Positions 1 through 49,688 of a stretch of DNA of 57,561 nucleotides are shown piece after piece (the first letter of the stretch is position 1; each line of letters begins with the position of its first letter). The position numbers and the translations under genes were made by a program. A model generated the notes under the pieces. The model had not been told where the DNA came from. It saw only the letters and a list, made by a program, of their open reading frames with translations, and searched no databases. Origin of the DNA: Lachnospiraceae bacterium (GTDB lineage Bacteria; Bacillota; Clostridia; Lachnospirales; Lachnospiraceae). The DNA lies in assembly GCA_910573755.1 (NCBI GenBank), contig CAJTBO010000030.1, positions 1-57,561 on the forward strand, read 5' to 3'.

Positions 1-89
1 TTGGTGTTAGAATATAAATAGTACAAGTTAAACATGGCAAGTTTCAGAAATATCCGTATAATAGAAACGGATACAGGAGGAGATTTTCC

Positions 90-377
90 ATGAGTAAACA
101 GTTTGATAAGCAGTTTAAAGAAAATGCAGTACAGTATTACCTTGAACATAGGGAACTTGGATGGAATAAATGTGCAGAGAACCTTGGGATAAGTCGGAAT
201 GCCATTCGGAACTGGGTAAAGGCGGCATCTGAGAACGCCGGGGAAGTACCCGTACGGGGATCCGGGAACTATGCAAGTGATGAAGAGAAGGAAAATGCCC
301 GGCTGAGAAAAGAACTCAGGGACACGAAAGATGCGCTTGAAATACTAAAAAAAGCCATCGGCATTCTGGGAAACTGA
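90..377 (+). CDS. IS3-family transposase OrfA (helix-turn-helix protein)
   Basis: This 95-residue protein has an N-terminal helix-turn-helix region (about residues 5-45, with the motif GISRNAIRNWV) and a leucine-rich helix at the C-terminus (about 65-92). That is the usual IS3 OrfA plan of DNA binding plus a leucine zipper for multimerisation. The start at 90 follows AGGAGGAG with good spacing. Near its end the heptamer A AAA AAA (347-353) lies in the phase needed for -1 slippage. The -1 frame is open from there into orfB, so most functional transposase is probably an OrfAB fusion. OrfA alone normally regulates transposition. Confidence 0.9.
   Translation: MSKQFDKQFKENAVQYYLEHRELGWNKCAENLGISRNAIRNWVKAASENAGEVPVRGSGNYASDEEKENARLRKELRDTKDALEILKKAIGILGN
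347..353 (+). other. Probable programmed -1 frameshift site between orfA and orfB
   Basis: Seven adenines form A AAA AAA in the orfA frame (codons CTA AAA AAA GCC). Reading the -1 frame from here gives an uninterrupted chain through 458 into orfB with no stop, while orfA itself stops at 375-377. This is the standard arrangement for making IS3-family OrfAB by ribosomal slippage. No downstream pseudoknot was worked out. Confidence 0.75.
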
Positions 378-457
378 CACAGGCCATCTTCCAGGCAACC
401 GAGAGGGAAGAAGAACGGTTAAAGGAAGAGGGGAAACGCCGTCTGAATGTCAGCGGG

Positions 458-1291
458 GTGCTAAGGATTTTAGGCGTTTCAAGGAATGGCTATAACACTT
501 TCAGAAAACATATGCCCTCTGCCGGCCAGGAAAAAAAGGAGCGGCGGATGGCAGAAATCAAAACAATATATGAGGAATCGCACGAAATTTATGGGGCTCC
601 CAAGATAGCTGCAAAGATGCGGCAGAAAGGCGACAGGGTAAGCGGGAGGACTGTGGGGAAGTACATGAAGGAGATGGGAATCCGGGCATGTTACAGGAAA
701 CACCGGACCCGCACGACCAGGGAATGTGATTTCAGCAGCGAATTAAAAAACATACTGAACCGGGATTTCCAGCCCCAAAGGCCGGATGCGTCATGGTGCA
801 CGGATATCACCTATCTATGGACCGACGGGGGCTTTGTATACCTGGCCAGCATCATGGACCTGTATTCGAGGAAGATCATTTCCTGGACACTGGGGGAAAC
901 GCTGGAGGCAAAGTGGGTATTGGAGGCCGTGGAAAAAGCGAAAAAGGAACGGCGCGTAAGCCAGCCGCTGGTGATACACAGCGACCGGGGAGTGCAGTAT
1001 ACCTGCGGGGATTATGAGGAAGCGACGGAAGGGATGGAACGCAGTTATTCGTCGAAAGCCTGTCCATGGGACAACGCCTGCATAGAAAGCTTCCATTCCC
1101 TGATCAAGAGAGAATGGACCAGCCGGTTCCATATCATAGATTACAGCCATGCATACAGGCTCGTGTTTGAATATATAGAAGCGTTCTACAATACAGTGAG
1201 GATCCACAGCCATTGTGGATACCGCTCCCCCGGCGAATATGAAAAACAATATCTGGCCAGGATGGAAGCGAAAATGAAGGAAACAGGTTAA
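458..1291 (+). CDS. IS3-family transposase OrfB (DDE integrase domain)
   Basis: This is the catalytic half of the transposase. The protein starts with an HTH_21-like region (IYGAPKIAAKMR) and has an rve-type integrase core. The acidic triad is visible as D in WCTDITYL, D in VIHSDRGVQY and E in DNACIESFHSLIKREW. Residues after the second Asp and around the Glu follow the IS3 consensus. GTG at 458 is only a nominal start: the frame is open back to the slippery run at 347-353, so the protein is probably made as an OrfAB fusion. No frameshift or stop interrupts it, so the element may still be active. Confidence 0.88.
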   Translation: MLRILGVSRNGYNTFRKHMPSAGQEKKERRMAEIKTIYEESHEIYGAPKIAAKMRQKGDRVSGRTVGKYMKEMGIRACYRKHRTRTTRECDFSSELKNILNRDFQPQRPDASWCTDITYLWTDGGFVYLASIMDLYSRKIISWTLGETLEAKWVLEAVEKAKKERRVSQPLVIHSDRGVQYTCGDYEEATEGMERSYSSKACPWDNACIESFHSLIKREWTSRFHIIDYSHAYRLVFEYIEAFYNTVRIHSHCGYRSPGEYEKQYLARMEAKMKETG

Positions 1292-1353
1292 GCGTTGTCA
1301 TGAGGAGCGGAGCCAAGGGGTGGGATAGATAAAAAGGAAGGAGGTACTGCCGG

Positions 1354-1518
1354 ATGAAGTCAAAAAACGTGGAAACATTAATCCAGGAGAGGGAAAATCT
1401 GCGCGATCTGCTGGAAGACATCATGGAACGGATTCAGGAGTTTCGTGAGGAAGTGTTAACCGGATTGGATGATCTGGAAGACATGATTGCGGAAAACAGC
1501 GGAATCGGATTCCGTTGA
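1354..1518 (+). CDS. Small passenger ORF inside the IS3 element (54 aa, unknown)
   Basis: An ATG at 1354 follows AAGGAAGGAGG at 1335-1343 with normal spacing and opens a 54-codon frame ending at TGA 1516-1518. It starts MKSKNVETLIQERENLRD and continues as an acidic, heptad-like helical protein without cysteines. It lies wholly inside the IS, between orfB and the right terminal repeat, so it is a candidate accessory gene of the element. IS3 elements normally need only orfA and orfB. I do not recognise the protein. It could be a small regulator or coiled-coil partner of the transposase, but that is a guess. Confidence 0.5.
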   Translation: MKSKNVETLIQERENLRDLLEDIMERIQEFREEVLTGLDDLEDMIAENSGIGFR

Positions 1519-1561
1519 TTCGGCGAAAAAGTCCACGTTTAACTTGTACTTTTTCTTGACA

Positions 1562-2254
1562 TAGTACCACCTGCAGGTTTTCACACACATAAGTGGATTC
1601 GGGTAAAATGTGCTGTGAGATCTGATTCTGCATTTCCGCAACACTGGAAGGGATTGCGTAGGAATTACAGACAACGATATTCTCCAGGTAAAGTTCCTCT
1701 TTTGACAGTTCGGATCTGGCCCTATAGGGATGTGTATCGGGAACGATACAGCACAGGGGTATCCTGAATAACTCTTTATAGACTGTATCGTTCTTTATGG
1801 GAATATCATTCTGGAAACCAAACAGCAGATCCAACTCATCCTGGTAGAAAAGATTCAGGATGGATCTGTGAGGGATTACTTTCAGGAATGGATAAAGCTC
1901 CGGCATTTGCTCTCCGCAGGATTTCAGTATCCTGCAGAGCAGGTCCAGATTGGCCTCGTTCTGGCATCCGATGGTTAGGATCTGCATGTTTGTGCTTTGG
2001 TGGCGCTGCAGTTTCTGCCCGGCAATTTTCAGTCTTCCCATAACATGTTTCGCGTCTTCCAGAAAGCTGATCCCGGCGGGGGTAAGGGTAACGGTCCTGG
2101 TAGTGCGGTGCAGAAGCTTTGTCCCCAGTTCATCTTCCAATGAGTGGATCTGCCGGGAAACGGCCGACTGGGTAATCTTTAAAATTTCAGCAGCTCTCGC
2201 AAAGTTCAGGTTTTCGGCAACCTGGATAAAGCTCTTTAACTGGTCTGTATTCAT
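1562..2254 (-). pseudogene. LysR-family regulator truncated by the IS3 insertion
   Basis: The start at 2254 has a GAGG ribosome site and gives a typical LysR N-terminus: a winged helix-turn-helix in residues 1-60 (FIQVAENLNFARAAEILKIT then QSAVSRQIHSLEDELG). The first part of the substrate-binding domain follows. Only about 231 native residues remain. The reading then runs into the right end of the IS and ends in unrelated residues at 1421. A full LysR protein has about 290-300 residues, so the end of the effector domain is missing and the gene is probably dead, although the DNA-binding part is intact. It is divergent from the MATE gene, a layout in which LysR proteins often control their neighbour. 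Confidence 0.85.
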
Positions 2255-2304: not shown

Positions 2305-2333
2305 TTCACAATCAAGTGTAAATGTGGTTAAAT
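2305..2333 (+). promoter_or_regulatory. Probable sigma-A promoter of the MATE operon
   Basis: TTCACA at 2305-2310 and TTAAAT at 2328-2333 are 17 bases apart. The predicted start of transcription is near 2340, which puts the CIRCE element at 2348-2374 just inside the transcript, where HrcA usually binds. Confidence 0.5.
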
Positions 2334-2347
2334 AGGTATTGCAAAGG

Positions 2348-2374
2348 TTAGCACTCAAAAAAAGAGAGTGCTAA
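2348..2374 (+). promoter_or_regulatory. CIRCE element (HrcA operator)
   Basis: The sequence TTAGCACTC, nine spacer bases, then GAGTGCTAA is an exact match to the consensus controlling inverted repeat of chaperone expression. HrcA binds this site and represses groESL and hrcA-grpE-dnaK operons in Firmicutes. Here it lies 27 bases upstream of the chosen start of a MATE efflux gene instead. A GTG at 2368 lies inside the element, so it is not a likely start codon. Confidence 0.9.
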
Positions 2375-2400
2375 CAACAGTAAGAAAGGCAGGTAAGAAG

Positions 2401-3759
2401 ATGGATACAACAGTAACAAAAACAAATCCGCTTGGCACGGAACGGATCGGAAAGCTGATCTTTACGTTTGCTGTTCCAAGCATCATTTCCATGGTGGTCA
2501 ACGCTTTGTACAACATTGTTGACCAGATTTTTATCGGTCAGGGGGTAGGGTATCTTGGCAATGGCGCCACCAATGTGGTCATGCCCATGACGGTGATCGC
2601 GATCGCGTTAAGCCTGCTGATCGGTGACGGAGCCGCGGCCTACCTGAGCCTGAAGCTGGGCGAGGGGGATGAAGAGTCAGCGGCCAGGGGCATAGGATGC
2701 TCTATTTCGGTCATGGCAGTGGCGGGCATTGTCCTCTGCGTGCTGTTCAACCTGTTTCTGGAACCGTTATGCAGGCTGTTTGGCGCGACAGAAGACATCC
2801 TGCCTTACGCGATGGATTATGGACGGATCATTTCCTATGGGATCCTGTTTTCTTCCATTGATTCCGGCATGGCAGGCATGATCCGTGCGGACGGCAGCCC
2901 GAAATACAGTATGGCAGGGCTTCTGGTGGGCTGTATCACCAATATCATCCTTGACCCGATCTTCATTTTTGTGTTCCATTGGGGCGTAAAAGGAGCGGCC
3001 TGGGCAACGATCGCAGGGCAGATACTGAACGCTTTTCTGTATCTTGCCTATATTTGGAAATTCAAGAGCATTAAGCTGGATAAGAAGTGCTTCCGCATTT
3101 CTGGGAAAGTGATGGCGAAAGTCAGCAGTCTGGGCATATCCAGCTTTATCACGCAGATTGCCATTGTGCTGGTCATGGCGGTCACCAATAACATACTGGT
3201 ATCTTATGGCGCGCGGTCGAAATATGGTGCGGAGATCCCCCTGACGACTATAGGTATTACCATGAAGGTGAACCAGATCGTCTCAGCCGTCCTTCTTGGA
3301 CTGGCAACAGGCGCGCAGCCTATCTGGGGCTACAATTACGGCAGCGGGCAGAAGGACAGGGTAAAGCAGGCATACCGTATTATACTTACTGCGTCAACGA
3401 TCATGCTGGTTCTGGCATTTCTGGTGTTCCAGTTCGCCCCTATGAGCATTGTCCGGCTCTTTGGTTCGGAATCAGAACTGTACAATGAGTTCGCGGTGAA
3501 ATGTTTCCGCATCTTCCTTCTGGCGTGTCCGATCAACGGGCTGCAGATGGCAACAGGCATTTTCTTTCAGGCGATCGGAAAACCGACACAGGCAACCGTA
3601 CTGTCCCTGTCCCGCCAGATCGTTTATCTGCTCCCGGCGACCTTATTGTTGCCGCTGGTATTAGGGGTGGAAGGGGCATTGTGGGCAGGTCCGCTGGCAG
3701 ATGCGCTTGCGTTTATCACAACTTTGATCATGTTGAAATTATATTGGAAAAAGATTTAA
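2401..3759 (+). CDS. MATE-family multidrug efflux transporter
   Basis: The 452-residue protein has about 12 hydrophobic segments and the N-terminal MATE pattern (PLGTERIGKLIFTFAVPSII, then NALYNIVDQIFIG). The two halves are related, as in the DinF/MepA-like branch. It should be an inner-membrane antiporter that expels cationic drugs or toxic metabolites using an ion gradient; the substrate cannot be told from sequence. ATG 2401 was chosen because upstream in-frame starts fall in or beside the CIRCE operator. The gene is followed after 10 bases by the cytidylate kinase-like gene, so the two probably form an operon. HrcA control is strongly suggested, and the truncated divergent LysR may once have regulated it too. 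Confidence 0.9.
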   Translation: MDTTVTKTNPLGTERIGKLIFTFAVPSIISMVVNALYNIVDQIFIGQGVGYLGNGATNVVMPMTVIAIALSLLIGDGAAAYLSLKLGEGDEESAARGIGCSISVMAVAGIVLCVLFNLFLEPLCRLFGATEDILPYAMDYGRIISYGILFSSIDSGMAGMIRADGSPKYSMAGLLVGCITNIILDPIFIFVFHWGVKGAAWATIAGQILNAFLYLAYIWKFKSIKLDKKCFRISGKVMAKVSSLGISSFITQIAIVLVMAVTNNILVSYGARSKYGAEIPLTTIGITMKVNQIVSAVLLGLATGAQPIWGYNYGSGQKDRVKQAYRIILTASTIMLVLAFLVFQFAPMSIVRLFGSESELYNEFAVKCFRIFLLACPINGLQMATGIFFQAIGKPTQATVLSLSRQIVYLLPATLLLPLVLGVEGALWAGPLADALAFITTLIMLKLYWKKI

Positions 3760-3769
3760 GGAGGCATCT

Positions 3770-4393
3770 ATGGAAGGAAGAATTATCACCATAAGCAGGC
3801 AGTGCGGAAGCGGCGGGCACAGCATTGGGAGCGAACTGGCCAAAAGGCTGGATGTGCCGTTCTATGACAGGGAGATCATTGAGATGGCGACAAAGGAAAG
3901 CGGGTTTCACAAGGAATTTGTTGAGGAAAAAGGGGAGCATATGAACAGCAGCCTGCTTTATAATATCGCCCGTTACGCATCATATGGGGGAAGAGGGCGG
4001 TATGAGGAGTATCAGCCGCTGCAGGATCAGCTTTACTTTGCGCAGGTAAAGGTCATTAAGGAGCTTGCGGGGAAAGGCCCCTGTGTCATAGTGGGCAGGT
4101 GCGCGGATTATATCCTGCGGGACAGGAAGGATGTGCTGAACGTCTTCATCCATGCGGATATGGCGTTCAAAAAGAAGCGCTGTACGGAGAGGGGGCAGTT
4201 TTCGGGCGAAAACGCGGATGACATGATCCGCAGGAGGGATAAACTGCGGGCAGACCATTACCGGTACTACACAGACCGGAAATGGGGGGATTCCTTAAAC
4301 TACCATTTATGTCTGGACAGCGGCATATTCGGTATTGGGAAATGTGTCTCCCTGATCGAAGACGCCTGTAGAGGGATGGGTGTCGTGCTATAA
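3770..4393 (+). CDS. Cytidylate kinase-like family protein
   Basis: This 207-residue protein begins RIITISRQCGSGGHSIGSEL, the start of the cytidylate kinase-like family common in clostridia, followed by DVPFYDREII as in nucleotide kinases. The P-loop is unusual: the position expected for the Walker A lysine is not a GK[ST] motif (GSGGHSIG), a known trait of this family whose substrate is unknown. C-terminal residues RCTERG...RRDKLRADHYRYYTDRKWGD resemble a LID/NMP-kinase segment. It follows the MATE gene by 10 bases and likely shares its CIRCE-controlled promoter. Whether it phosphorylates CMP/dCMP cannot be said; essential cytidylate kinase is normally a separate gene. Confidence 0.8.
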   Translation: MEGRIITISRQCGSGGHSIGSELAKRLDVPFYDREIIEMATKESGFHKEFVEEKGEHMNSSLLYNIARYASYGGRGRYEEYQPLQDQLYFAQVKVIKELAGKGPCVIVGRCADYILRDRKDVLNVFIHADMAFKKKRCTERGQFSGENADDMIRRRDKLRADHYRYYTDRKWGDSLNYHLCLDSGIFGIGKCVSLIEDACRGMGVVL

Positions 4394-8127: not shown

Positions 8128-8131
8128 GTTT

Positions 8132-8408
8132 GTGCGCCATGGGCGGCTCTAACGGGTGTAAGTTCCGAACATGCCCGGGGAGTGGGAAATGTAAAAGCAG
8201 AGTAGATGGCTTCCGTCCGGCCAGATGTGCACAGCAGGCAGTCACTAAGGCATTAGAGATGATGAATGATGGACACAGCCGGATTATAGACGTTGACCCT
8301 GCAAAGTTCTTTGATACTGTAAACCATGACAAGCTGATGACTATTTTGGGCAGGACTATCAAGGACGGCGATTTGAGAACGGTCAAAAACCTGCCGGATA
8401 GAAAATAG
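8132..8408 (+). pseudogene. Deleted group II intron with reverse-transcriptase fragment
   Basis: GTGCGCCATGGGCGG at 8132 resembles the 5-prime end of bacterial group II introns and is followed by a typical GGGTGTAAG segment. From about 8210 the frame reads GFRPARCAQQAVTKALEMMN, then DVDPAKFFDTVNHDKLMTILG, the core of group II intron-encoded reverse transcriptases (LtrA-like). Nearly all of the ribozyme, most of the RT and the whole maturase region are missing, so this is a deletion remnant. The 7874-8088 stretch before it holds no gene that I can see. Confidence 0.8.
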
Positions 8409-8657: not shown

Positions 8658-8683
8658 CTGTCAGAAGAAAACAGGAGGTAATG

Positions 8684-9769
8684 ATGAAAAGAAAGGGCAA
8701 TCATTTTAAAGTGATATGCGGGTTCTTTTTATGTGCAGTTATTCTAACAGGCTGTTCCGGCGGCCATCAGGCGGCAGAAGAAATTTCCGTAGAAGACGGG
8801 AGAGAAGAGCCGAAGGAAGGAATAGCGGATGCGGGAAAAACGGATACAGGAAAAACGGAAGAAACAGAAACGGGGAATCGGGAGGCAGAGCCGAAGAGCG
8901 CTTCTATAGAGGCAGACAGAGAGGCTTCCAAGAAGGATATTGTGATGGAACAGGGAATGATCACTCCGGAGGTCATCAGCACAGACTGGTCGGAATATTT
9001 CAACGGGCTGAACGGGACGGCAGTTATATATGACGCTGCCCACGGAAAATATGCAATATATAATGATGGTCCTGCGTTGGAGAGAAGGTCTCCATGCTCC
9101 ACGTTTAAGATCGTTTCCTCCCTGATCGCACTGGAAAACGGCATTATCATACCGGAGGATTCCACCCGGGTGTGGAGCGGTGAGATATTCTGGAATGAAG
9201 ACTGGAATAAAGATATTGATTTCGGGGAAGCATTCCGCACTTCCTGCGTATGGTATTACAGACAGGTCATAGATGATATCGGAGAGGATATGATGCAGAA
9301 AGAACTGGATAAACTGCAGTACGGCAACAGTGATATTTCCGACTGGGAGGGGAGGCTGAACACAAACAATAATAACCGGGCTTTAACCGGTTTTTGGCTC
9401 GAATCGTCTTTAGGGATATCCCCTAAGGAACAGACGGAGGTAATGGAACATATCTTTGGCGAGGATTCGGATTATTCAGAAAAAACGCTGGATGAGTTGA
9501 AGCGGGTCATGCTGGTATCGGAACAGGAGCGGGAAGATATTTCCATATACGGGAAGACAGGAATGGGAAAAGCCGGGGGCGTTGTCGTCGACGCATGGTT
9601 TACCGGATTCGCGGAAAGCACGGAGGGGAAGATATACTTTTGTGTGCATCTTGGAAGAACAGACGGCATGAATGTATCCAGCGCGGGGGCAAAGGAGATC
9701 GCGCTTCAAATCGTGTCGGACTATTATGAGGAAGAAGCCGAAGAATGGACTGATACAAAAAGCGGATAA
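8684..9769 (+). CDS. Class D (OXA-type) beta-lactamase-like lipoprotein
   Basis: The protein (361 aa from ATG 8684; ATG 8681 would sit too close to AGGAGG) starts with a lipoprotein signal ending in LTGC, so it should be anchored to the outer face of the membrane. A Glu/Lys/Thr-rich linker of about 70 residues leads to a penicillin-binding domain. The class D motifs are present, counting from ATG 8681: STFK (140-143, catalytic Ser and carbamylated Lys), SCV (188-190), YGN (214-216), WLESSL (omega-loop Trp, 239-244) and KTG (292-294). It should hydrolyse or bind beta-lactams, like the intrinsic class D enzymes of clostridia; the spectrum cannot be predicted. The BlaI-type operator upstream supports induced expression. 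A BlaR1-like sensor role is unlikely because there are no extra membrane segments. Confidence 0.88.
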   Translation: MKRKGNHFKVICGFFLCAVILTGCSGGHQAAEEISVEDGREEPKEGIADAGKTDTGKTEETETGNREAEPKSASIEADREASKKDIVMEQGMITPEVISTDWSEYFNGLNGTAVIYDAAHGKYAIYNDGPALERRSPCSTFKIVSSLIALENGIIIPEDSTRVWSGEIFWNEDWNKDIDFGEAFRTSCVWYYRQVIDDIGEDMMQKELDKLQYGNSDISDWEGRLNTNNNNRALTGFWLESSLGISPKEQTEVMEHIFGEDSDYSEKTLDELKRVMLVSEQEREDISIYGKTGMGKAGGVVVDAWFTGFAESTEGKIYFCVHLGRTDGMNVSSAGAKEIALQIVSDYYEEEAEEWTDTKSG

Positions 9770-12991: not shown

Positions 12992-13684
12992 ATGGAACAG
13001 AAAGAGCATTTCCGTCATGAACTGAAATATCGGATTGCATATCCGCAGTATCAGGAACTGCGGAGCCGCCTGAGGACAGTCATGCGGCCGGACCTGCATA
13101 CAGGAGCTGACGGCAGGTATCTGATCCGGAGTATTTATTTTGACAATTACAAAGATAAAGCCCTGCAGGAGAAAACGGAGGGCGTCGCCAGACGGGAAAA
13201 ATTCAGGATCAGATATTATAATGACGATTTTTCATTTATCGTACTGGAAAAGAAAAGGAAGGATAATAATCTTTGCTTAAAGTTTGATGCAGAGATCACC
13301 GAGGAGGAGTGCCGGCAGTTGCTGGAGGGCAGTCTGAACTGGATGAGAGGACATCCGTCAGAGCTGGTGCGGGAACTGTATGTAAAGATGCATACGCAGA
13401 TGCTGCGGCCGAGGGTGCTGGTATCCTATGTACGAGAGCCTTATATTTACAGGGCAGGGAATGTCAGGGTGACATTCGATTCTCAGGTCAGGACAACACT
13501 GTATCACAGAAGGTTTCTGGAGGAGAAGGTGATTGATATCAGTGCTTTTGATGAATCGCGGGATATGATACTGGAAGTCAAGTATGATGCTTTTTTGCCG
13601 GAGGTGGTACGGGGAATGCTTCAGACCGGTGTGATGCGGCAGGAGGCGTTTTCCAAATATGCGGCATGCAGAAGATTTGGGTAG
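12992..13684 (+). CDS. VTC-domain protein (probable polyphosphate polymerase)
   Basis: The 230-residue protein is a single VTC domain. Its basic tunnel residues are visible in the order RHELKYRI, LIRSIYFDN, REKFRIRYYN, LEKKRK and ILEVKYDAFLPE. In the family these line a channel that binds polyphosphate and ATP, and characterised members make polyphosphate. Bacterial copies next to DUF4956 and CotH genes are common and their product is not settled. The protein is soluble, so it would act in the cytoplasm, perhaps at the membrane with the DUF4956 protein encoded about 100 bases downstream. A hairpin in the leader may modulate expression. Confidence 0.87.
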   Translation: MEQKEHFRHELKYRIAYPQYQELRSRLRTVMRPDLHTGADGRYLIRSIYFDNYKDKALQEKTEGVARREKFRIRYYNDDFSFIVLEKKRKDNNLCLKFDAEITEEECRQLLEGSLNWMRGHPSELVRELYVKMHTQMLRPRVLVSYVREPYIYRAGNVRVTFDSQVRTTLYHRRFLEEKVIDISAFDESRDMILEVKYDAFLPEVVRGMLQTGVMRQEAFSKYAACRRFG

Positions 13685-13785: not shown

Positions 13786-14457
13786 ATGACATTTAATGAC
13801 ATTTTTAAATCCGGCTTTCTGGAGAATATTACGGAGTTTTCAGCGGTGGATACGCTGATCGGGATGTTGTTTGCGCTTGTGATCGGGCTGTTTGTGTTTA
13901 TGGTGTACAAAAAGACATTCAATGGCGTGATGTATTCCAGCGGATTTTCGCTGACGCTTGTCGGGCTTGCCCTTGTGACAACACTGATCATCATGGCGGT
14001 GACATCCAATGTGGTGCTTTCCCTCGGAATGGTCGGCGCGCTTTCGATTGTCCGGTTTCGGGCGGCAATCAAGGAACCGATGGAGATCGTGTATCTGTTC
14101 TGGGCGATCGCGGCAGGGATTGTGATAGGGGCCGGGATGATTCCGCTTGCCGTGATCGGTTCTGCGATCATAGGGGTGGTACTGATCCTTTTTGCGAATC
14201 GTAAGGTGCATGAAAATCCTTATATCCTGATCATGAACTGCACGGATGAAGGGGCGGAAGAAACGGCGTTGAATCTGACGGAAAAGGCGGTGGAACGGTT
14301 TGTGGTGAAATCCAAGACGGTAAATGCGGGAGGGATCGAGCTGACTGCGGAGATCCGGATGAAGGATGCGGAAACTTCCTTTGTCAACAGGCTGGGAGAT
14401 ATCGACGGAGTGAGTGATGTGACGCTGGTAAGCTACAACGGGGAGTATATGTCCTGA
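13786..14457 (+). CDS. DUF4956-family membrane protein
   Basis: The 223-residue protein has three to four membrane segments in residues 20-140. The central segment holds GMVGALSIVRFRAAIKEP, the family signature that places charged residues next to a membrane helix. A cytoplasmic domain of about 80 residues follows. The family has no settled function but is repeatedly found beside VTC and CotH genes, as here, so it probably forms the membrane part of that system. The start at 13786 follows AGGAGG. The gene ends 14 bases before cotH. Confidence 0.87.
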   Translation: MTFNDIFKSGFLENITEFSAVDTLIGMLFALVIGLFVFMVYKKTFNGVMYSSGFSLTLVGLALVTTLIIMAVTSNVVLSLGMVGALSIVRFRAAIKEPMEIVYLFWAIAAGIVIGAGMIPLAVIGSAIIGVVLILFANRKVHENPYILIMNCTDEGAEETALNLTEKAVERFVVKSKTVNAGGIELTAEIRMKDAETSFVNRLGDIDGVSDVTLVSYNGEYMS

Positions 14458-14471
14458 GGAAGGAGGTATAT

Positions 14472-15986
14472 ATGATTACCCATAGAAATATAACAGGAGT
14501 TGTCGGCAGCCTGATGGCGGCAGCGGTTCTGGCCTGCTTTGTTGTGATGGCATTTCCGCAGAAGGCGGTAGAAACACTGGGCGGAAATGCGATAGCCATG
14601 GAGTATGAATCGGAGCTATTTGACACGGATCAAATCATTCAGATCGATATTCAGATGGAAGAGGCGGACTGGGAGGAGATGCTGGCTGAGGCGATGGCAG
14701 AGGAGTATTATGCCTGCGATGTTGTGATAAACGGTTGGAAGATCTGTAATGTGGGAATACGGCCGAAGGGGAATACCAGTCTGTCATCTATTGCCTCAGA
14801 CCCTGATACAGACAGATTTTCGCTGAAACTGGAATTTGACCATTATACGAAGGGTCAGACCTGTTTCGGGCTTGATAAACTGATCCTGAATAATAATTAT
14901 GCGGATGCGACCAATATGAAGGAGGCAATCGTATACGATATGTATCAGTATCTGGGAGCGGACGCGTCGCTGTACAATTATGCGGAGATATCGGTGAACG
15001 GAGTATATTGGGGAGTATATCTGGCGCTTGAGGCTGTAGAGGAAAGTTTTTTGCTGCGAAATTATGGTACGGAGGACGGAGAACTCTATAAGCCGGAAAA
15101 TATGGACGGAGAGCGAAACGGGCAGGAGAGGCCGGAAGGAGAAGCGCCGTTCGGAGGCGGGATGCCGGAGCCCCCGGAAGAAGAGGCGCCGTTCGGAGGT
15201 TTTTCTAAGGACAATGGAGGCGCGGACCTGAATTATACGGATGACGCGATGGAAAGCTATTCCGTGATATGGGACGGAGAAGTGACAGATGCCACTGATC
15301 AGGATCACCGCAGGGTTGTCACAGCCCTGAAAAATATAAGTGAAGGAACAGATTTAGAGAACTATCTGGATGTGGACAATGTGCTGAAATATATGGCAGT
15401 GCACACATTTTCCGTGAATATGGACAGTCTTTCCGGAAATATGACGCACAATTATTATCTGTATGAGCATAACGGACAGTTGAATATCCTTCCCTGGGAT
15501 TATAATCTGGCTTTCGGCGGAATGGGCGCAGGAATGGGAGGAGCGGGCAGAGGACAGCAGGGGCAGGATACAGGCGCTTCGGCTGTGATCAATGATGCCG
15601 TTGACACGCCTTTTCAGGGGACGGAATTTTTCGATGCCCTGCTGGAAAATGAGGAATATCTTTCCCGATACCATGAGTACCTCAGACAGCTTACAGAAGA
15701 GTATGTTTTTGGAGGAAAATTTGAGGAAACCTATCTCCGCATCAGAAGCCGGATCGATGTACTGGTTCAGAATGATCCCACAGCATTTTATTCCTGTGAG
15801 CAATACGAGGCGGGTGCGGCTATGCTTTATCAGACCGTTATGCTGAGAGCGGAAAGCATTCAGGGACAGATAGATGGCGTGATCCCGTCTACGGATGAGG
15901 GGCAGATGGCGGATGATTCTGATCTTATGGATGCATCGGAGATCGATGTGAATGTGATGGGAAGTTTTGAAAAAGGACGGAAATAG
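14472..15986 (+). CDS. CotH-family protein kinase-like protein
   Basis: The 504-residue protein begins with a signal or membrane anchor (residues 8-30), so the rest lies outside the membrane. The CotH fold is recognisable from GIRPKGNTSLS, RFSLKLEFD, the long block LDKLILNNNYADATNMKE, SVNGVYWGVYLALEAVEE, LYKPEN and the metal-binding ILPWDYNLAFGG. CotH of spore formers phosphorylates coat proteins. Non-sporulation members next to VTC and DUF4956 genes have unknown targets. An internal acidic Pro/Gly/Glu-rich insert (about 210-250, repeats of EEAPFGG) and a Gly-rich patch (GGMGAGMGGAGRG) after the metal motif are unusual and probably disordered. A strong terminator follows. Confidence 0.87.
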   Translation: MITHRNITGVVGSLMAAAVLACFVVMAFPQKAVETLGGNAIAMEYESELFDTDQIIQIDIQMEEADWEEMLAEAMAEEYYACDVVINGWKICNVGIRPKGNTSLSSIASDPDTDRFSLKLEFDHYTKGQTCFGLDKLILNNNYADATNMKEAIVYDMYQYLGADASLYNYAEISVNGVYWGVYLALEAVEESFLLRNYGTEDGELYKPENMDGERNGQERPEGEAPFGGGMPEPPEEEAPFGGFSKDNGGADLNYTDDAMESYSVIWDGEVTDATDQDHRRVVTALKNISEGTDLENYLDVDNVLKYMAVHTFSVNMDSLSGNMTHNYYLYEHNGQLNILPWDYNLAFGGMGAGMGGAGRGQQGQDTGASAVINDAVDTPFQGTEFFDALLENEEYLSRYHEYLRQLTEEYVFGGKFEETYLRIRSRIDVLVQNDPTAFYSCEQYEAGAAMLYQTVMLRAESIQGQIDGVIPSTDEGQMADDSDLMDASEIDVNVMGSFEKGRK

Positions 15987-18521: not shown

Positions 18522-20121
18522 CTCAAACTTCGCACATAGATTTTAGCTATGCACCTTGAAAATTCAATATCTGGCAGTGATTCAATTATCAAAGAACAGT
18601 CTTTTATGCCGCTATGCTGCAACTAATTGCGATTGTAGCAGAGATGGCAACGTGCTGATGAATGCTTCAACCAGTTCATCTATCTTTTCATCAACGAGAT
18701 CGCAGTGTTCCTCTAAAAGTTTCCGGAACATTTGGAGCAGCATCTGAAATGCCTGTATCCATGTAATGTCAGACATTTCGTCAGTAAAGTATAGAAATAA
18801 TTCCCCAAGAGACCGGTTGTCCTTTGATTCCCTGTTTTCGATGGACAGCATCATATATCTGGTAAAGACAACCGCTGTGTGGGCGCTCATTGCATCAAAA
18901 GAAAGGGAATGGCATTCTTTGCTGAGCCTGAGATAACTCTTGCAGACTTTGAAGAATACTTCGATATCCCAGCGTTTCCCATAAAGGCGGATGATTTCTT
19001 CTTCACTTAAAGACATATCCGTTGAGATAAGGCACAGGTACTCTTTCCGCTTATTCCGGTTGCGGACATATACGACTCTGGCGGGGATGGATTTTTCTCC
19101 CCTGATCACTTCCACTTCTACTGATAAGAGATATCTGGAACGACCCCTGCGTTTCTTGTTCTTCTTGTAGATATGGATAAGTGAAAGGGCTTCTCCATTG
19201 TACCGGAAGAACATCTTTGGTGTCTTCTTGATCATTCCGATTACTTCATAACCAAGATTTTTTACAGCATGAAGCGATTTTGGAGAAGAAAACCAGCTGT
19301 CAAAGAGAACATATTTTGCAGGAATGTCAGCATTTTTAGCGGCTTTGAGAAGTTCTAACATAGCCTGCGTCCCTTTTGTCATAGAAAGTTTGCGGCGCTT
19401 ATAACCAACGGTTCTCTTATCAAGGCTGACGGCTTCATTCACACGGTTTTTCTTATTGTCCGTGGATAAAAGGATGCTGTTTATGGGAAGGAATGTAGTG
19501 CCGTCTGTCCATCCAAGGGTCAGCATACGGAATCCAAATTGATAGGCATGTTTTGCATGGTCGTAAGTTTTTGCAAGGAGTTCCACCTTTTTGGAACGGT
19601 TCCTTTCAAACATGGAATCATCAATACAGAGTACATTTGTCCTGCACGCATCATTCAGCGGCACAACGGCGTCCCGGATGATCCTTGATGCAAGTACCGT
19701 TGTGAACCTGATCCAGTTGATCTGTGTAGATTTCATAAAACGGTATACAGTGTCTTTTGCGAAAGAAGGCGTATTTCTTCCGGACAGAAGATGCATGTAC
19801 ATGCTTCTGTTTGAAAAGATCAGGAGAAACAGGTACTGGAAAATCTGTGTCACAGGCGTGCCTTTCTTATGGTAAGCGCCGGATGCCTTTAAAGCAGACG
19901 TCACATGGAATCTGGAAAAAAATCTTTTGATAGTTTTAGAGATCTGGTTATCATTCTGGTTGTCTTGTGTTATACTGTTATTCATAGCATGAGCCTCCGG
20001 TGGTATTTTGTTTTTGGACAACTCAATTATACCAAAACCAGAGTGTTTCATGCTATTTTATTGCCAGTTATGATTGAATTTTCAAGGTGCATAGGCACTT
20101 ATTCAAGTGCGAAGTTTGAGT
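18521..20121 (-). mobile_element. IS4-family insertion sequence at the recD2 stop codon
   Basis: The ends are inverted repeats starting ACTCAAACTTCGCAC on both sides, with a second block CTATGCACCTTGAAAATTC in common after a variable spacer. A 5-bp direct repeat GAATA (18516-18520 and 20122-20126) flanks the element, which fits a target duplication. It carries one intact transposase on the minus strand. Confidence 0.88.
18612..19985 (-). CDS. IS4-family transposase
   Basis: This transposase has 457 residues from the ATG at 19985, which follows GGAGG; an in-frame ATG 22 codons upstream lacks a ribosome site. It is a DDE enzyme of the IS4 type. The first Asp is in VLCIDDSMFERN, the second in YVLFDSWFSSPKSL, and the catalytic Glu sits in the YREK signature YGKRWDIEVFFKVCKSYL. 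No stop or frameshift interrupts it. It cuts and pastes its own element by recognising the terminal inverted repeats, and it reads towards recD2. Confidence 0.9.
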   Translation of the reverse strand: MNNSITQDNQNDNQISKTIKRFFSRFHVTSALKASGAYHKKGTPVTQIFQYLFLLIFSNRSMYMHLLSGRNTPSFAKDTVYRFMKSTQINWIRFTTVLASRIIRDAVVPLNDACRTNVLCIDDSMFERNRSKKVELLAKTYDHAKHAYQFGFRMLTLGWTDGTTFLPINSILLSTDNKKNRVNEAVSLDKRTVGYKRRKLSMTKGTQAMLELLKAAKNADIPAKYVLFDSWFSSPKSLHAVKNLGYEVIGMIKKTPKMFFRYNGEALSLIHIYKKNKKRRGRSRYLLSVEVEVIRGEKSIPARVVYVRNRNKRKEYLCLISTDMSLSEEEIIRLYGKRWDIEVFFKVCKSYLRLSKECHSLSFDAMSAHTAVVFTRYMMLSIENRESKDNRSLGELFLYFTDEMSDITWIQAFQMLLQMFRKLLEEHCDLVDEKIDELVEAFISTLPSLLQSQLVAA

Positions 20122-20130
20122 GAATAATTA

Positions 20131-21711
20131 GTGTCTGCTGAACAACTTAAAATATTGATAAATACTGAATTTTCCAGCATTTTTTGTTATAATAATTGCA
20201 TGGAACAAAGATATAATCGCTTTATTTTCTTGCAGAATTTTTATAAAAGTCAGGAGATGCCATGTATAAGACACCAGATAAAAGCCAGCCCTCACTACTT
20301 GATTTTGACCAGCCCCTCGGACTCCGGATGAACCCAGATAACCGCTGGGTGCAGCTTGCGGACAGGGCTCCGTGGGGCATATTTGAAGAAAAATATGCCG
20401 CCCTCTTCCCCAGCGGAACAGGGAACGTGGCAAAGCCGCTGCGCCTTGCACTCGGCTCCCTGATCATCCAGAACAGGTTCCAGTATTCGGACCGGGAGCT
20501 TGTGGAACAGCTTTCAGAAAACCCCTACTTGCAGTATTTTATCGGCCTTCCGGGATACCAGCCCCAGGCACCGTTTGACGCCAGCACGCTTGTATGGTTC
20601 CGTAAGAGGATCACCATGGATATCCTGAATGAGGCTAATGAATATATGCTCGAACACAAGGACGATGACGGCCCGGCGCCGCCGGCATCCGGCGGCCCCA
20701 GCGGGGATGCCCCGCAGGGGGAAGAAGCCGCAAACAGCGGGACACTCATCATAGACGCCACCTGTGCCCCTGTGAACATCCGGTACCCACAGGATATTTC
20801 CCTCCTGAACGAGGCAAGGGAAAAGCTGGAATATATCATTTACCGGATGTGCAAGTCCTATGGGCTCACCCTGCCGCGCCGTTACCGCCGGAACGCAAGG
20901 AAAGACTACCTGGCATTCGTAAAGAGCAGGAAGCACACAGAGGAGAAAGTCCGTGAAGCGGTAAAAAAACAGCTTTCCTACGCGCGCAGGGACATCAGGT
21001 ACCTGGAGGGCTTCTTCAGCCAAGGGTATGCCCCGGATAAGAAAGACATCCCATTGCTGGTGACGATCTTCCGCCTGTGCCAACAGCAGGAGTACATGTA
21101 TAAAAACCATGTCCATTCGGTGACGGACCGTGTCGTCAGCATACGCCAGCCATGGATCCGCCCCATTGTCAGGGGGAAAGCCAGCGCACCGGTGGAATTC
21201 GGGCCGAAGCTGGATGTCAGCATCGACAGCGGGGGCTATGGGCGGATCGAAAAAGTCTCTTTTGACGCTTATAACGAAAGCGGCAGTCTGGCTGCGGCGC
21301 TAGAGCGGTATCGGGAACGGACAGGACGGTACCCCGAACGCGTACTGGCAGACAAAATATACCGGACAAAAGAAAACCGTGCTTACTGCCGCAAAAACGG
21401 CATAAGGCTTTCCGGCCCAAGACTCGGCAGGCCATCCAAGGATAACAGGGCTGACAAAAAACAGGAATATCAGGATAACACAGACCGGATAGAAGTGGAA
21501 CGGTTCATCAGTCGGAGCAAACGCTGCTTTGGCATGGGACTTATTGTCACAAAGCTTGAAACAACACAGCTTACGTCGGTTGCGTTATCTGTATTCGTGT
21601 CGAATCTTTTCAGGATTCAGAGGCGAATATTTGCAGTCATTTTTAGTATACACTATAAATTTATAGTATGTGTTGCCTGAAGCAAGCTAAAACATCTTGT
21701 TCAGCAGACAC
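20131..21711 (+). mobile_element. IS1182-type (IS5/IS1182 group) insertion sequence
   Basis: Terminal inverted repeats GTGTCTGCTGAACAA (20131 onward, and complementary at the right end to 21711) are flanked by TAATTA on both sides (20125-20130 and 21712-21717), a 6-bp target duplication that is itself a palindrome. Only nine bases separate it from the IS4 element. Confidence 0.87.
20262..21680 (+). CDS. IS1182-type transposase (DUF772 N-terminus)
   Basis: The 472-residue protein opens with the DUF772 domain (FEEKYAALFP ... LVEQLSENPYLQYFIGLPG). The DDE core follows, with the first Asp in GTLIIDATCAP, a second acidic site near VSIDSGGYGRIEKVSFDAYN and the last Glu in DRIEVERFISRSKRCFG. A Gly/Pro-rich insert (about residues 135-160) precedes the core and is typical for the group. 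It is uninterrupted and starts after AGGAG, so the element may be active. Confidence 0.88.
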   Translation: MYKTPDKSQPSLLDFDQPLGLRMNPDNRWVQLADRAPWGIFEEKYAALFPSGTGNVAKPLRLALGSLIIQNRFQYSDRELVEQLSENPYLQYFIGLPGYQPQAPFDASTLVWFRKRITMDILNEANEYMLEHKDDDGPAPPASGGPSGDAPQGEEAANSGTLIIDATCAPVNIRYPQDISLLNEAREKLEYIIYRMCKSYGLTLPRRYRRNARKDYLAFVKSRKHTEEKVREAVKKQLSYARRDIRYLEGFFSQGYAPDKKDIPLLVTIFRLCQQQEYMYKNHVHSVTDRVVSIRQPWIRPIVRGKASAPVEFGPKLDVSIDSGGYGRIEKVSFDAYNESGSLAAALERYRERTGRYPERVLADKIYRTKENRAYCRKNGIRLSGPRLGRPSKDNRADKKQEYQDNTDRIEVERFISRSKRCFGMGLIVTKLETTQLTSVALSVFVSNLFRIQRRIFAVIFSIHYKFIVCVA

Positions 21712-47667: not shown

Positions 47668-47672
47668 GGACT

Positions 47673-47838
47673 TTAGATAGAGGTTGCGCCTGCTATCAGT
47701 CATCTGTCTGATGTGGCAGTCACAGAGGAGGGCGGATAAAAGGAGCCGGCGCCGAAGGAAGTGATCTGCTGCGGATCGTTTCCTGGGCATATGCTGAATA
47801 AGTATATGACTGTCATCGGGCAGATGGGGCGCTATCGT
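47673..47838 (+). promoter_or_regulatory. Lysine riboswitch (L-box)
   Basis: The leader begins TAGATAGAGGTTGCGCC and ends GGGGCGCTATC, which pair to close the aptamer. Between them lie the L-box landmarks: ATCAGT followed by CTGATG (first arms), the purine-rich AGGAG and AAGGAGCCGGCGCCGAAGGA blocks, GTTTCCTGGGC and the stem CATATGCTGAATAAGTATATG. It is followed by an intrinsic terminator and then dapA. Binding of lysine should favour the terminator and shut off lysine/diaminopimelate synthesis. Confidence 0.88.
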
Positions 47839-47854
47839 AACAAAGTCTATTTGG

Positions 47855-47963: not shown

Positions 47964-48857
47964 ATGTCAGTATTTACAGGAGCAGGCGTGGCGATCGTCA
48001 CACCATTTCACGAGGATTACAGTATTAACTACGAAGCATTTGCGGAACTGATCGAATATCAGATCGCAAATTCCACGGACGCCATTATCGTAATGGGTAC
48101 TACGGGAGAATCCGCTACTACAAGCATTGAAGAACATATAGAGGCGATCCGGTTTTGTGTAAAGACCGTAAACGGAAGGGTGCCCGTTGTGGCGGGAACC
48201 GGCTCCAACGCGACGGATACGGCGATCCATTTATCAAAGGAAGCGGAAAGATGTGGCGCGGACGGCCTGCTTACCGTGTCCCCTTATTACAACAAGGCGA
48301 CACAGAACGGTTTATACAAACATTTTAAGGCGATCGCGGATTCTGTAAAGCTTCCGATCATCCTGTATAACGTACCCGGCAGGACCGGCTGCAATATCCT
48401 GCCGGAGACGGTGGTGAGGCTTTGCAGGGATGTGGAAAATATCGTGGGAGTGAAGGAAGCCAGCGGTAGTATCTCCCAGATCGCGAAACTGTTTGCTTTA
48501 GCGGACGGGGCGGTGGATGTCTATTCCGGCAATGACGACCAGATCGTGCCGATCCTGGCGCTTGGCGGCAAGGGTGTGATCTCCGTACTTTCCAATGTGG
48601 CGCCGCAGCAGACACACGATATCTGCCAGCTTTATTTTGACGGAAAAACGAAAGAGAGCGCGGCACTGCAGTTAAAAGCCATTCCCCTTGTGGATGCGCT
48701 CTTTTGTGAGGTGAACCCGATTCCGGTGAAGAAGGGCGTAGCCCTGATGGGCATCGCGGCAGGCCCGCTTCGGATGCCTCTTTCGGAGATCGAGCCGGCA
48801 CATGAAGAGGTGCTCAGAAAGGCAATGACAGAGTTCGGATGCGAGATAAAAGCGTAA
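47964..48857 (+). CDS. dapA: 4-hydroxy-tetrahydrodipicolinate synthase
   Basis: The 297-residue enzyme shows the DapA motifs GTTGESATTS, YYNKATQNGLYKHF, LYNVPGRTG (catalytic Tyr) and VGVKEASGS (Schiff-base Lys). It condenses pyruvate with aspartate semialdehyde, the first step of the diaminopimelate/lysine branch, in the cytosol. The start follows TGGAGGAAG. Lysine control acts through the riboswitch upstream. dapB follows after 66 bases in the same direction. Confidence 0.95.
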   Translation: MSVFTGAGVAIVTPFHEDYSINYEAFAELIEYQIANSTDAIIVMGTTGESATTSIEEHIEAIRFCVKTVNGRVPVVAGTGSNATDTAIHLSKEAERCGADGLLTVSPYYNKATQNGLYKHFKAIADSVKLPIILYNVPGRTGCNILPETVVRLCRDVENIVGVKEASGSISQIAKLFALADGAVDVYSGNDDQIVPILALGGKGVISVLSNVAPQQTHDICQLYFDGKTKESAALQLKAIPLVDALFCEVNPIPVKKGVALMGIAAGPLRMPLSEIEPAHEEVLRKAMTEFGCEIKA

Positions 48858-48923
48858 GCTTACAACAGATAAATGAAGTCTGCCTGCGCCCTTTGGCGCA
48901 GGCGCAGAGAGGGAGGTGTTTTT

Positions 48924-49688
48924 ATGATCAGAGTGATTTTGCATGGCTGTAACGGAAAGATGGGACAGATCGTCACGGAGTTATGCAGTCAGGAGGAAGA
49001 GATCAGGATTGTGGCAGGCGTTGACGCATTTCAGCATGGAACAGGAGAATATCAGGTTTACCGTGATATTTATCAATGCAATATAACGGCGGATGTAGTG
49101 ATCGATTTTTCCATGGCTCCCGCGGTTGAGGGGCTGCTGAATTATTGTGCGGAGAGAAAGCTTCCCTGTGTATTGTGTACCACCGGATTATCACCGGAGC
49201 AGTTGGAAAAAGTAAAAGAGGCATCGGAGAAGACGGCAATACTGCGTTCCGCTAATATGACTCTTGGAGTCAATCTGCTGATGAAACTGCTGAAAGAGGC
49301 CGTGGCGACTCTGGCGCCGGCGGGGTTTGATGTGGAGATCTTGGAAAAACATCATAACCAGAAGGTGGACGCGCCCAGCGGCACGGCGATCGCATTGGCA
49401 GACGCGATGAACGAGGAGATGGACGGCGCTTACGAGTATGTCTATGACAGAAGCTGGGTGCGCCAGAAAAGAGATAAGAAGGAGCTGGGTATCTCCGCGG
49501 TCCGCGGCGGTACCATTGTAGGCGACCATGATGTGATCTTTGCCGGGATGGATGAAGTCATTACTTTTTCCCACCGTGCCTATTCCAAAGGCGTATTTGC
49601 CAAAGGCGCGATTCAGGCGGCAAAGTATATAGCCGGAAAACCCGCCGGCCTCTACACCATGTCCGACGTCATCGAAAATAGAGAATAG
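48924..49688 (+). CDS. dapB: 4-hydroxy-tetrahydrodipicolinate reductase
   Basis: The 254-residue protein has the nucleotide-binding start VILHGCNGKMGQIV and the catalytic block EKHHNQKVDAPSGTA. It reduces the DapA product with NAD(P)H. ATG 48924 follows GGGAGG; an upstream in-frame start lacks a ribosome site and would extend the protein beyond the family start. It is the second gene of the riboswitch-controlled operon. Confidence 0.95.
   Translation: MIRVILHGCNGKMGQIVTELCSQEEEIRIVAGVDAFQHGTGEYQVYRDIYQCNITADVVIDFSMAPAVEGLLNYCAERKLPCVLCTTGLSPEQLEKVKEASEKTAILRSANMTLGVNLLMKLLKEAVATLAPAGFDVEILEKHHNQKVDAPSGTAIALADAMNEEMDGAYEYVYDRSWVRQKRDKKELGISAVRGGTIVGDHDVIFAGMDEVITFSHRAYSKGVFAKGAIQAAKYIAGKPAGLYTMSDVIENRE

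Follow-up and report, generated by a model that had tools for sequence, protein, structure and literature searches.

The stretch of DNA analysed here (57,561 nucleotides, hereafter the window) carries a gene for a MATE family exporter followed, after a gap of 10 bases, by a Cytidylate_kin2 gene (P-loop kinase-like). The pair is preceded by a putative promoter, a predicted HrcA operator of the CIRCE type and a short leader, and a lysR gene, split by an insertion sequence (IS), runs divergently on the other side (Table 1).

Table 1. Features of the window; an empty cell means that no value is given.
Feature	Position	Strand	Basis
IS3-family insertion sequence splitting the divergent lysR	2..1569	+	NF033516 1.8e-80; 22-nt inverted ends
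IS OrfA	90-377	+	PF01527
IS transposase	458-1291	+	part of the IS3-family element
LysR-family regulator gene, 5' part only, ~228 of 292 residues	1570..2254	-	PF00126/PF03466
Putative promoter TTCACA-17-TTAAAT	2305..2333	+	by eye; 12 intergenic regions aligned
CIRCE (predicted HrcA operator), exact	2348..2374	+	TTAGCACTC-N9-GAGTGCTAA
Leader and ribosome-binding sequence taken over from groES2 (AGAAAGGCAGGTAA), now directly ahead of the MATE start	2375..2400	+	alignment with relatives
MATE family exporter, 452 aa	2401..3759	+	PF01554 4.4e-36; TIGR00797 168.1 bits, cut-off 147.4
Cytidylate_kin2 (P-loop kinase-like) gene	3770..4393	+	PF13189 3.5e-56, 190.6 bits, cut-off 28
55-aa frame, transposase-start-like	from 4457		by eye
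Two adjacent ORFs, 352 and 517 aa	5234-7873		
Weak reverse-transcriptase fragment	8130-8408		RVT_1, under cut-off
Penicillin-binding transpeptidase domain	8681-9769		
VTC-type polymerase-like gene	12992-13684		by eye
DUF4956-like membrane protein gene	13786-14457		by eye
CotH kinase protein	14472-15986		4.3e-60
Two different DDE transposase genes, adjoining, on opposite strands	18612-21680		
Lysine riboswitch	47670-47842		111.7 bits
dapA-like gene	47964-48857		by eye
dapB-like gene	48873-49688		by eye

The PF01554 matches fall in two stretches that span a full-length MATE protein, which is predicted from its sequence to export drugs or metabolites; in NCBIfam it scored far under the cut-offs of the named drug pumps FepA and MepA. 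By homology its start is the ATG at 2401, while the GTG start at 2368 in the list of open reading frames falls within CIRCE. A kinase match behind MATE was also found in 41 of 80 loci of relatives. In Parablautia muri (L017, 4369-4738) the Cytidylate_kin2 beside MATE is without its inner part (residues 48-124), and in L019 the region behind MATE gave no kinase match. The preliminary description had placed a MATE pump and a cytidylate kinase-like gene behind CIRCE, and both domain assignments held.

CIRCE had also been described as exact, and so it proved: its letters are TTAGCACTC-AAAAAAAGA-GAGTGCTAA, and it is the sole match in the window at up to three mismatches, where dinucleotide shuffles gave a mean of 0.01. 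As RNA it would lie near the 5' end of the predicted transcript as a 10-bp hairpin (fold -17 kcal/mol, z -4.44) and may thereby influence how long the transcript lasts. The "good promoter" claimed in front of it is plausible. TTCACA (2305-2310) and TTAAAT (2328-2333; TTTAAT in relatives) are separated by 17 bp, the promoter ends 14 bases before CIRCE, and CIRCE ends 26 bases before the MATE ATG. A consensus scanner, which requires A at position 2 of the -10 element, did not list this pair and reported TTGATA-17-CACAAT at 2284-2312 instead; it counted 4 promoter-like sites in the region against 3.1 in shuffles, so that the promoter is regarded as putative. Alignment of 12 intergenic regions revealed that the promoter region is also common to lysR-linked relatives without CIRCE. 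Downstream, the window leader could be aligned with those in front of groES2, or of what is left of it, in L016, L017, L019, G264, G374, G013 and G150, while the MATE leader of five relatives (AGGAGGTAA) differs from that of the window. The leaders of groES2 and of MATE each contain AGGTAA, and this short repeat offers a possible route for the deletion in the window.

Aligned over 249 residues, of which the final ones are encoded by the IS, the truncated LysR shows 85.5% identity to its intact counterpart in L017. The missing part was found in L176, at the end of contig C19 against the left IS end, and contigs C19 and C30 appear to meet at the IS in lysR. Fragments identical or 99% identical to the IS ends also occur at the ends of contigs C19, C38 and C48. 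When the IS ends were compared by eye with L176 and L177, CCT was seen to flank the element on either side, as a target duplication of three bases would leave it. The marR gene found in relatives is gone from the locus. With MarR gone, lysR split and HrcA intact, CIRCE is the one operator in front of the pump for which an intact regulator is seen; the sequence on the lysR side persists, and other regulators are possible. Other family members (L136 and L137, from about 500) have a LysR of this subfamily, with a similar promoter region, divergent to ABC exporter genes (Pfam was applied to one L136 gene only), and this LysR type thus accompanies several exporters.

A number of other features were recorded in the window. 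The 55-aa frame behind the kinase gene had no Pfam match, and the two ORFs after it, the second with membrane-like stretches by eye, had no Pfam, NCBIfam or PADLOC matches. The reverse-transcriptase fragment is possibly a group II intron remnant. For the transpeptidase-domain protein, all 25 NCBIfam matches listed were under their cut-offs, the best being class D beta-lactamases (CDD family) and BlaR1 sensors. The CotH gene stands in a row with the polymerase-like and DUF4956-like genes, and the lysine riboswitch lies just before the dapA-like and dapB-like genes. A plasmid origin was considered and rejected, PLSDB yielding one weak 104-bp match.

Whole-genome analysis revealed five CIRCE sites within three mismatches, all of them exact, compared with one match to a reversed control pattern. 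The other four precede hrcA (L001, with a grpE-like frame after it, by eye), an hsp20-type gene (L002), htpG (L003) and groES-groEL (L004). NCBIfam assigned the products in L001, L003 and L002 as HrcA, HtpG and Hsp18-like, the last under its cut-off. The window CIRCE is thus the only one of the five without a heat-shock gene behind it. HrcA is intact (TIGR00331, 313.8 bits, cut-off 197.2), and the genome, which is 95% complete, holds one groEL, at the main locus. According to two publications, GroEL keeps HrcA active and unfolded proteins titrate GroEL (PMC3828012; PMC3842655). In Clostridium acetobutylicum, the first describes HrcA operators for groESL and the dnaK operon as well as for htpG and for one membrane-protein gene adjacent to groESL (CAC2705), those before htpG and CAC2705 being predictions (PMC3828012). 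Another family genome, G204, showed 12 matches to CIRCE-N{5,35}-AGG, the highest number seen among 299 genomes, some perhaps double-counted; its HrcA regulon is perhaps large.

It had been proposed that CIRCE before this pump widens the HrcA regulon. As a statement about a class of genes this did not survive comparison, and a general HrcA-MATE regulon was rejected, since CIRCE was exact in only 3 of the 80 genome_contigs loci (L016, L017, L019), most of whose MATEs are 47-60% identical to that of the window. One further locus (L049) has a three-mismatch site ~2.9 kb upstream. In the remaining 76, whose upstream DNA was for some as short as 131 bases, no CIRCE was found within three mismatches; this count includes L022, whose upstream region is uninformative because only residues 170-452 of its MATE are present, the 5' end being cut off. 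Among the seven best loci from the 299 family genomes besides that of the window, G264 and G013 have CIRCE upstream and G194 has it behind MATE, while G149, G208, G296 and G026 have none within four mismatches. In the genus of the window, a MATE at E 1e-120 or better was present in one of eight other genomes and was only 47% identical. Given the 3 of 80 exact sites, the link between CIRCE and MATE is a local rewiring and not a general extension of the regulon. No paper uniting CIRCE, HrcA and "MATE efflux" was found in the open-access literature searched.

Orthologs were gathered from these 80 loci and from genomes of the same family. All five full-length orthologs that are 93-96% identical carry CIRCE between the divergent lysR and MATE (four exact, one with one mismatch). 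The check proposed beforehand, a search for CIRCE ahead of orthologous MATE genes, thus found it in the closest orthologs; in these five, however, it heads groES2-groEL2 or their remains, at a different stage of decay in each (Table 2), and lies 160 to about 1,370 bases from MATE, compared with 26 in the window. No new operator arose; CIRCE was inherited, because in the relatives it heads the second chaperonin operon or what is left of it. In the window the groES2 leader lies directly before MATE while groES2, groEL2 and MarR are gone, and the locus is therefore an end stage of the decay.

Table 2. State of the lysR-MATE region in the window and in relatives. L017 (G405) and G408 carry the same sequence and were counted once.
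Locus	CIRCE	Genes
G150	two mismatches	lysR; complete groES2-groEL2, besides main groESL
L017 (Parablautia muri)	exact	groES2 complete, groEL2 broken, then MarR
G264	exact	groES2 complete, groEL2 broken, then MarR without its first residues
G374	one mismatch	groES2 frameshifted, running into second half of MarR
L019	exact	first 26 codons of groES2; MarR end by eye
L016	exact	no groES; 21-codon groEL scrap; MarR
G013	one mismatch	scraps only; 60% identical version of MATE behind the same lysR region
Window	exact	groES2, groEL2 and marR gone; groES2 leader joined to MATE ATG
G412	lost	same lysR-side region; 59% identical MATE retained
L018	none	LysR, MarR, MATE, kinase

In a groES tree of 19 short proteins, most forks of which are otherwise weak, the groES2 of G150, G130, G405 and G264 formed a cluster (support 96/92) that excluded the L020 copy and 14 main groES. 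DNA identity to the window genome was 83.5-88.5% for MATE, 75.5-79.5% for the main groEL and 71.8-81.1% for lysR; this comparison covers four genomes (L016, L017, L019 and G264), the groEL values for G374, G013 and G406 being left out. The higher identity of MATE than of the main groEL suggests possible horizontal transfer, but the range of lysR is lower than that of MATE, so that the parts of the locus differ in history. Either groESL2 was put into a lysR-marR-MATE locus or MATE was joined to lysR-groESL2.

The conservation of CIRCE was also assessed. Among seven MATE-linked loci retaining it, 1 of 18 arm sites varies compared with 7 of 9 spacer sites (Fisher 0.0003), and among the five with broken or lost groES the figures are 1/18 and 6/9 (P 0.0017), in tests that are uncorrected for shared descent and include the time before groES was lost. 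However, a control set, the three loci in which groES2 is whole, gave a like result (2/18 arm and 6/9 spacer sites; P 0.006), so the contrast does not single out the pump. Comparison of the arms with the 84 bp upstream, which comprised 6 and 4 sequences as G013 has no upstream letters there, was not significant (P 0.065 for the seven loci and 0.18 for the five). Retention is not strict either, because G412 lost CIRCE and G374 and G013 have one mismatch. Selection on the operator for the sake of the pump may plausibly have acted.

Several explanations may be put forward for an exact CIRCE in this position. The element could be a non-functional relic that has not yet decayed, with the pump running from the promoter on the lysR side and any control by HrcA being useless. 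Each of the five closest relatives has broken or partly lost genes between CIRCE and MATE, lysR of the window is split by the IS, G412 has lost CIRCE, and conservation of the arms does not significantly exceed that of the sequence upstream, all of which agrees with such a relic. Yet the arms are exact in the window, L016, L017, L019 and G264 despite differing spacers, and even a useless operator could repress; we find this explanation quite unlikely. A palindrome of 27 bp might, on the other hand, serve chiefly to stabilise the transcript as a hairpin at the 5' end of the mRNA, and the 10-bp stem and its folding energy (-17 kcal/mol, z -4.44) are in keeping with that. The arms nevertheless match CIRCE exactly in sequence and not just in pairing, and HrcA is encoded in the genome along with four further CIRCEs ahead of heat-shock genes, which makes such a role very improbable. 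A chance palindrome is refuted and its probability negligible: 0.01 matches within three mismatches would be expected in the window, the sites of the genome are all exact, and the orthologs share the place and the leader.

A stronger form of the explanation that we favour holds that CIRCE was selected before the pump because toxic compounds are countered jointly by chaperones and export, the chaperone genes being dispensable riders. Chaperone genes do recur beside the MATE group in other layouts: in L020 LysR-hsp20-groES-groEL adjoins MATE-kinase, in G194 a one-mismatch CIRCE and hsp20 lie behind MATE, and in G013 and L017 hsp20 is beside lysR. This leaves room for a real chaperone-export link. 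However, just a handful of loci is concerned, and among the 80 loci, some with short flanks, groES, groEL or Hsp20 matches were found only in L016, L017, L019 and L020. We regard this stronger form as doubtful, if worth keeping in view.

The explanation that we favour, with a probability of about 0.72, is that CIRCE is the surviving groES2-groEL2 operator and that pump and kinase are transcribed through it, subject to repression by HrcA and relief by unfolded proteins. A second chaperonin operon would once have stood between the divergent lysR promoter and a marR-MATE-kinase operon. As the comparison of relatives shows, deletions took out groES2, groEL2 and marR and brought the groES2 leader up against the ATG of MATE, and an IS3-family element, traced across two contigs, additionally split lysR. 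Transcription of pump and kinase therefore probably starts at the old promoter on the lysR side and passes through CIRCE. Following the known HrcA mechanism, free GroEL would keep HrcA active, and HrcA would bind CIRCE just past the start site and, by analogy, repress the pump in vivo; once unfolded proteins occupy GroEL, HrcA would release and the pump would be made. Expression would accordingly be low under calm conditions and rise when proteins unfold. The pump thus probably gained control by protein-folding stress through gene loss. It is further conceivable that, in a group of gut Lachnospiraceae, successive deletions of the riding groESL2 operon and the IS in lysR took the exporter out of the drug-sensing control of LysR and MarR and placed it under protein-folding control by HrcA, and that the operator outlived its own genes because it was useful for the pump; this we offer only tentatively, leaning somewhat against it.

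The locus resembles the class I operons of the HrcA/CIRCE system (groESL, hrcA-grpE-dnaKJ) in having an exact CIRCE in the leader behind a predicted promoter, in a genome with intact HrcA and GroEL, and htpG of this genome carries CIRCE, as is predicted for Clostridium acetobutylicum (PMC3828012). Unlike class I heat-shock operons, the window CIRCE precedes MATE and Cytidylate_kin2, and the chaperonin genes that brought it are gone. The LysR-MarR-MATE-kinase locus of L018, which is presumably regulated by LysR and MarR, has a similar divergent lysR promoter region and the same MATE-kinase order, but lacks CIRCE and retains MarR. The second groESL beside lysR in G150 and L135 shares with the window the lysR promoter region, CIRCE (with two mismatches there) and the groES leader AGAAAGGCAGGTAACA; there, however, groES2 and groEL2 are complete, and the 9.5 kb read holds no MATE match. 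Judged by its sequence, the window MATE-kinase locus is a predicted addition to the operons of HrcA type, and the evolutionary path that led to it is well documented.

The locus is a caution that a perfect CIRCE found in front of an unusual gene may be all that is left of a lost chaperonin operon. It also offers a visible, step-by-step case of how a gene may enter an old, highly conserved regulon via the loss of the genes between an operator and the next gene. If the operator did outlive its own genes through its use to the pump, the decay series represents operator capture by gene decay, with several stages present in living species. If HrcA controls the pump, export would rise with unfolded protein, and chaperone load would be linked directly to efflux in gut anaerobes.
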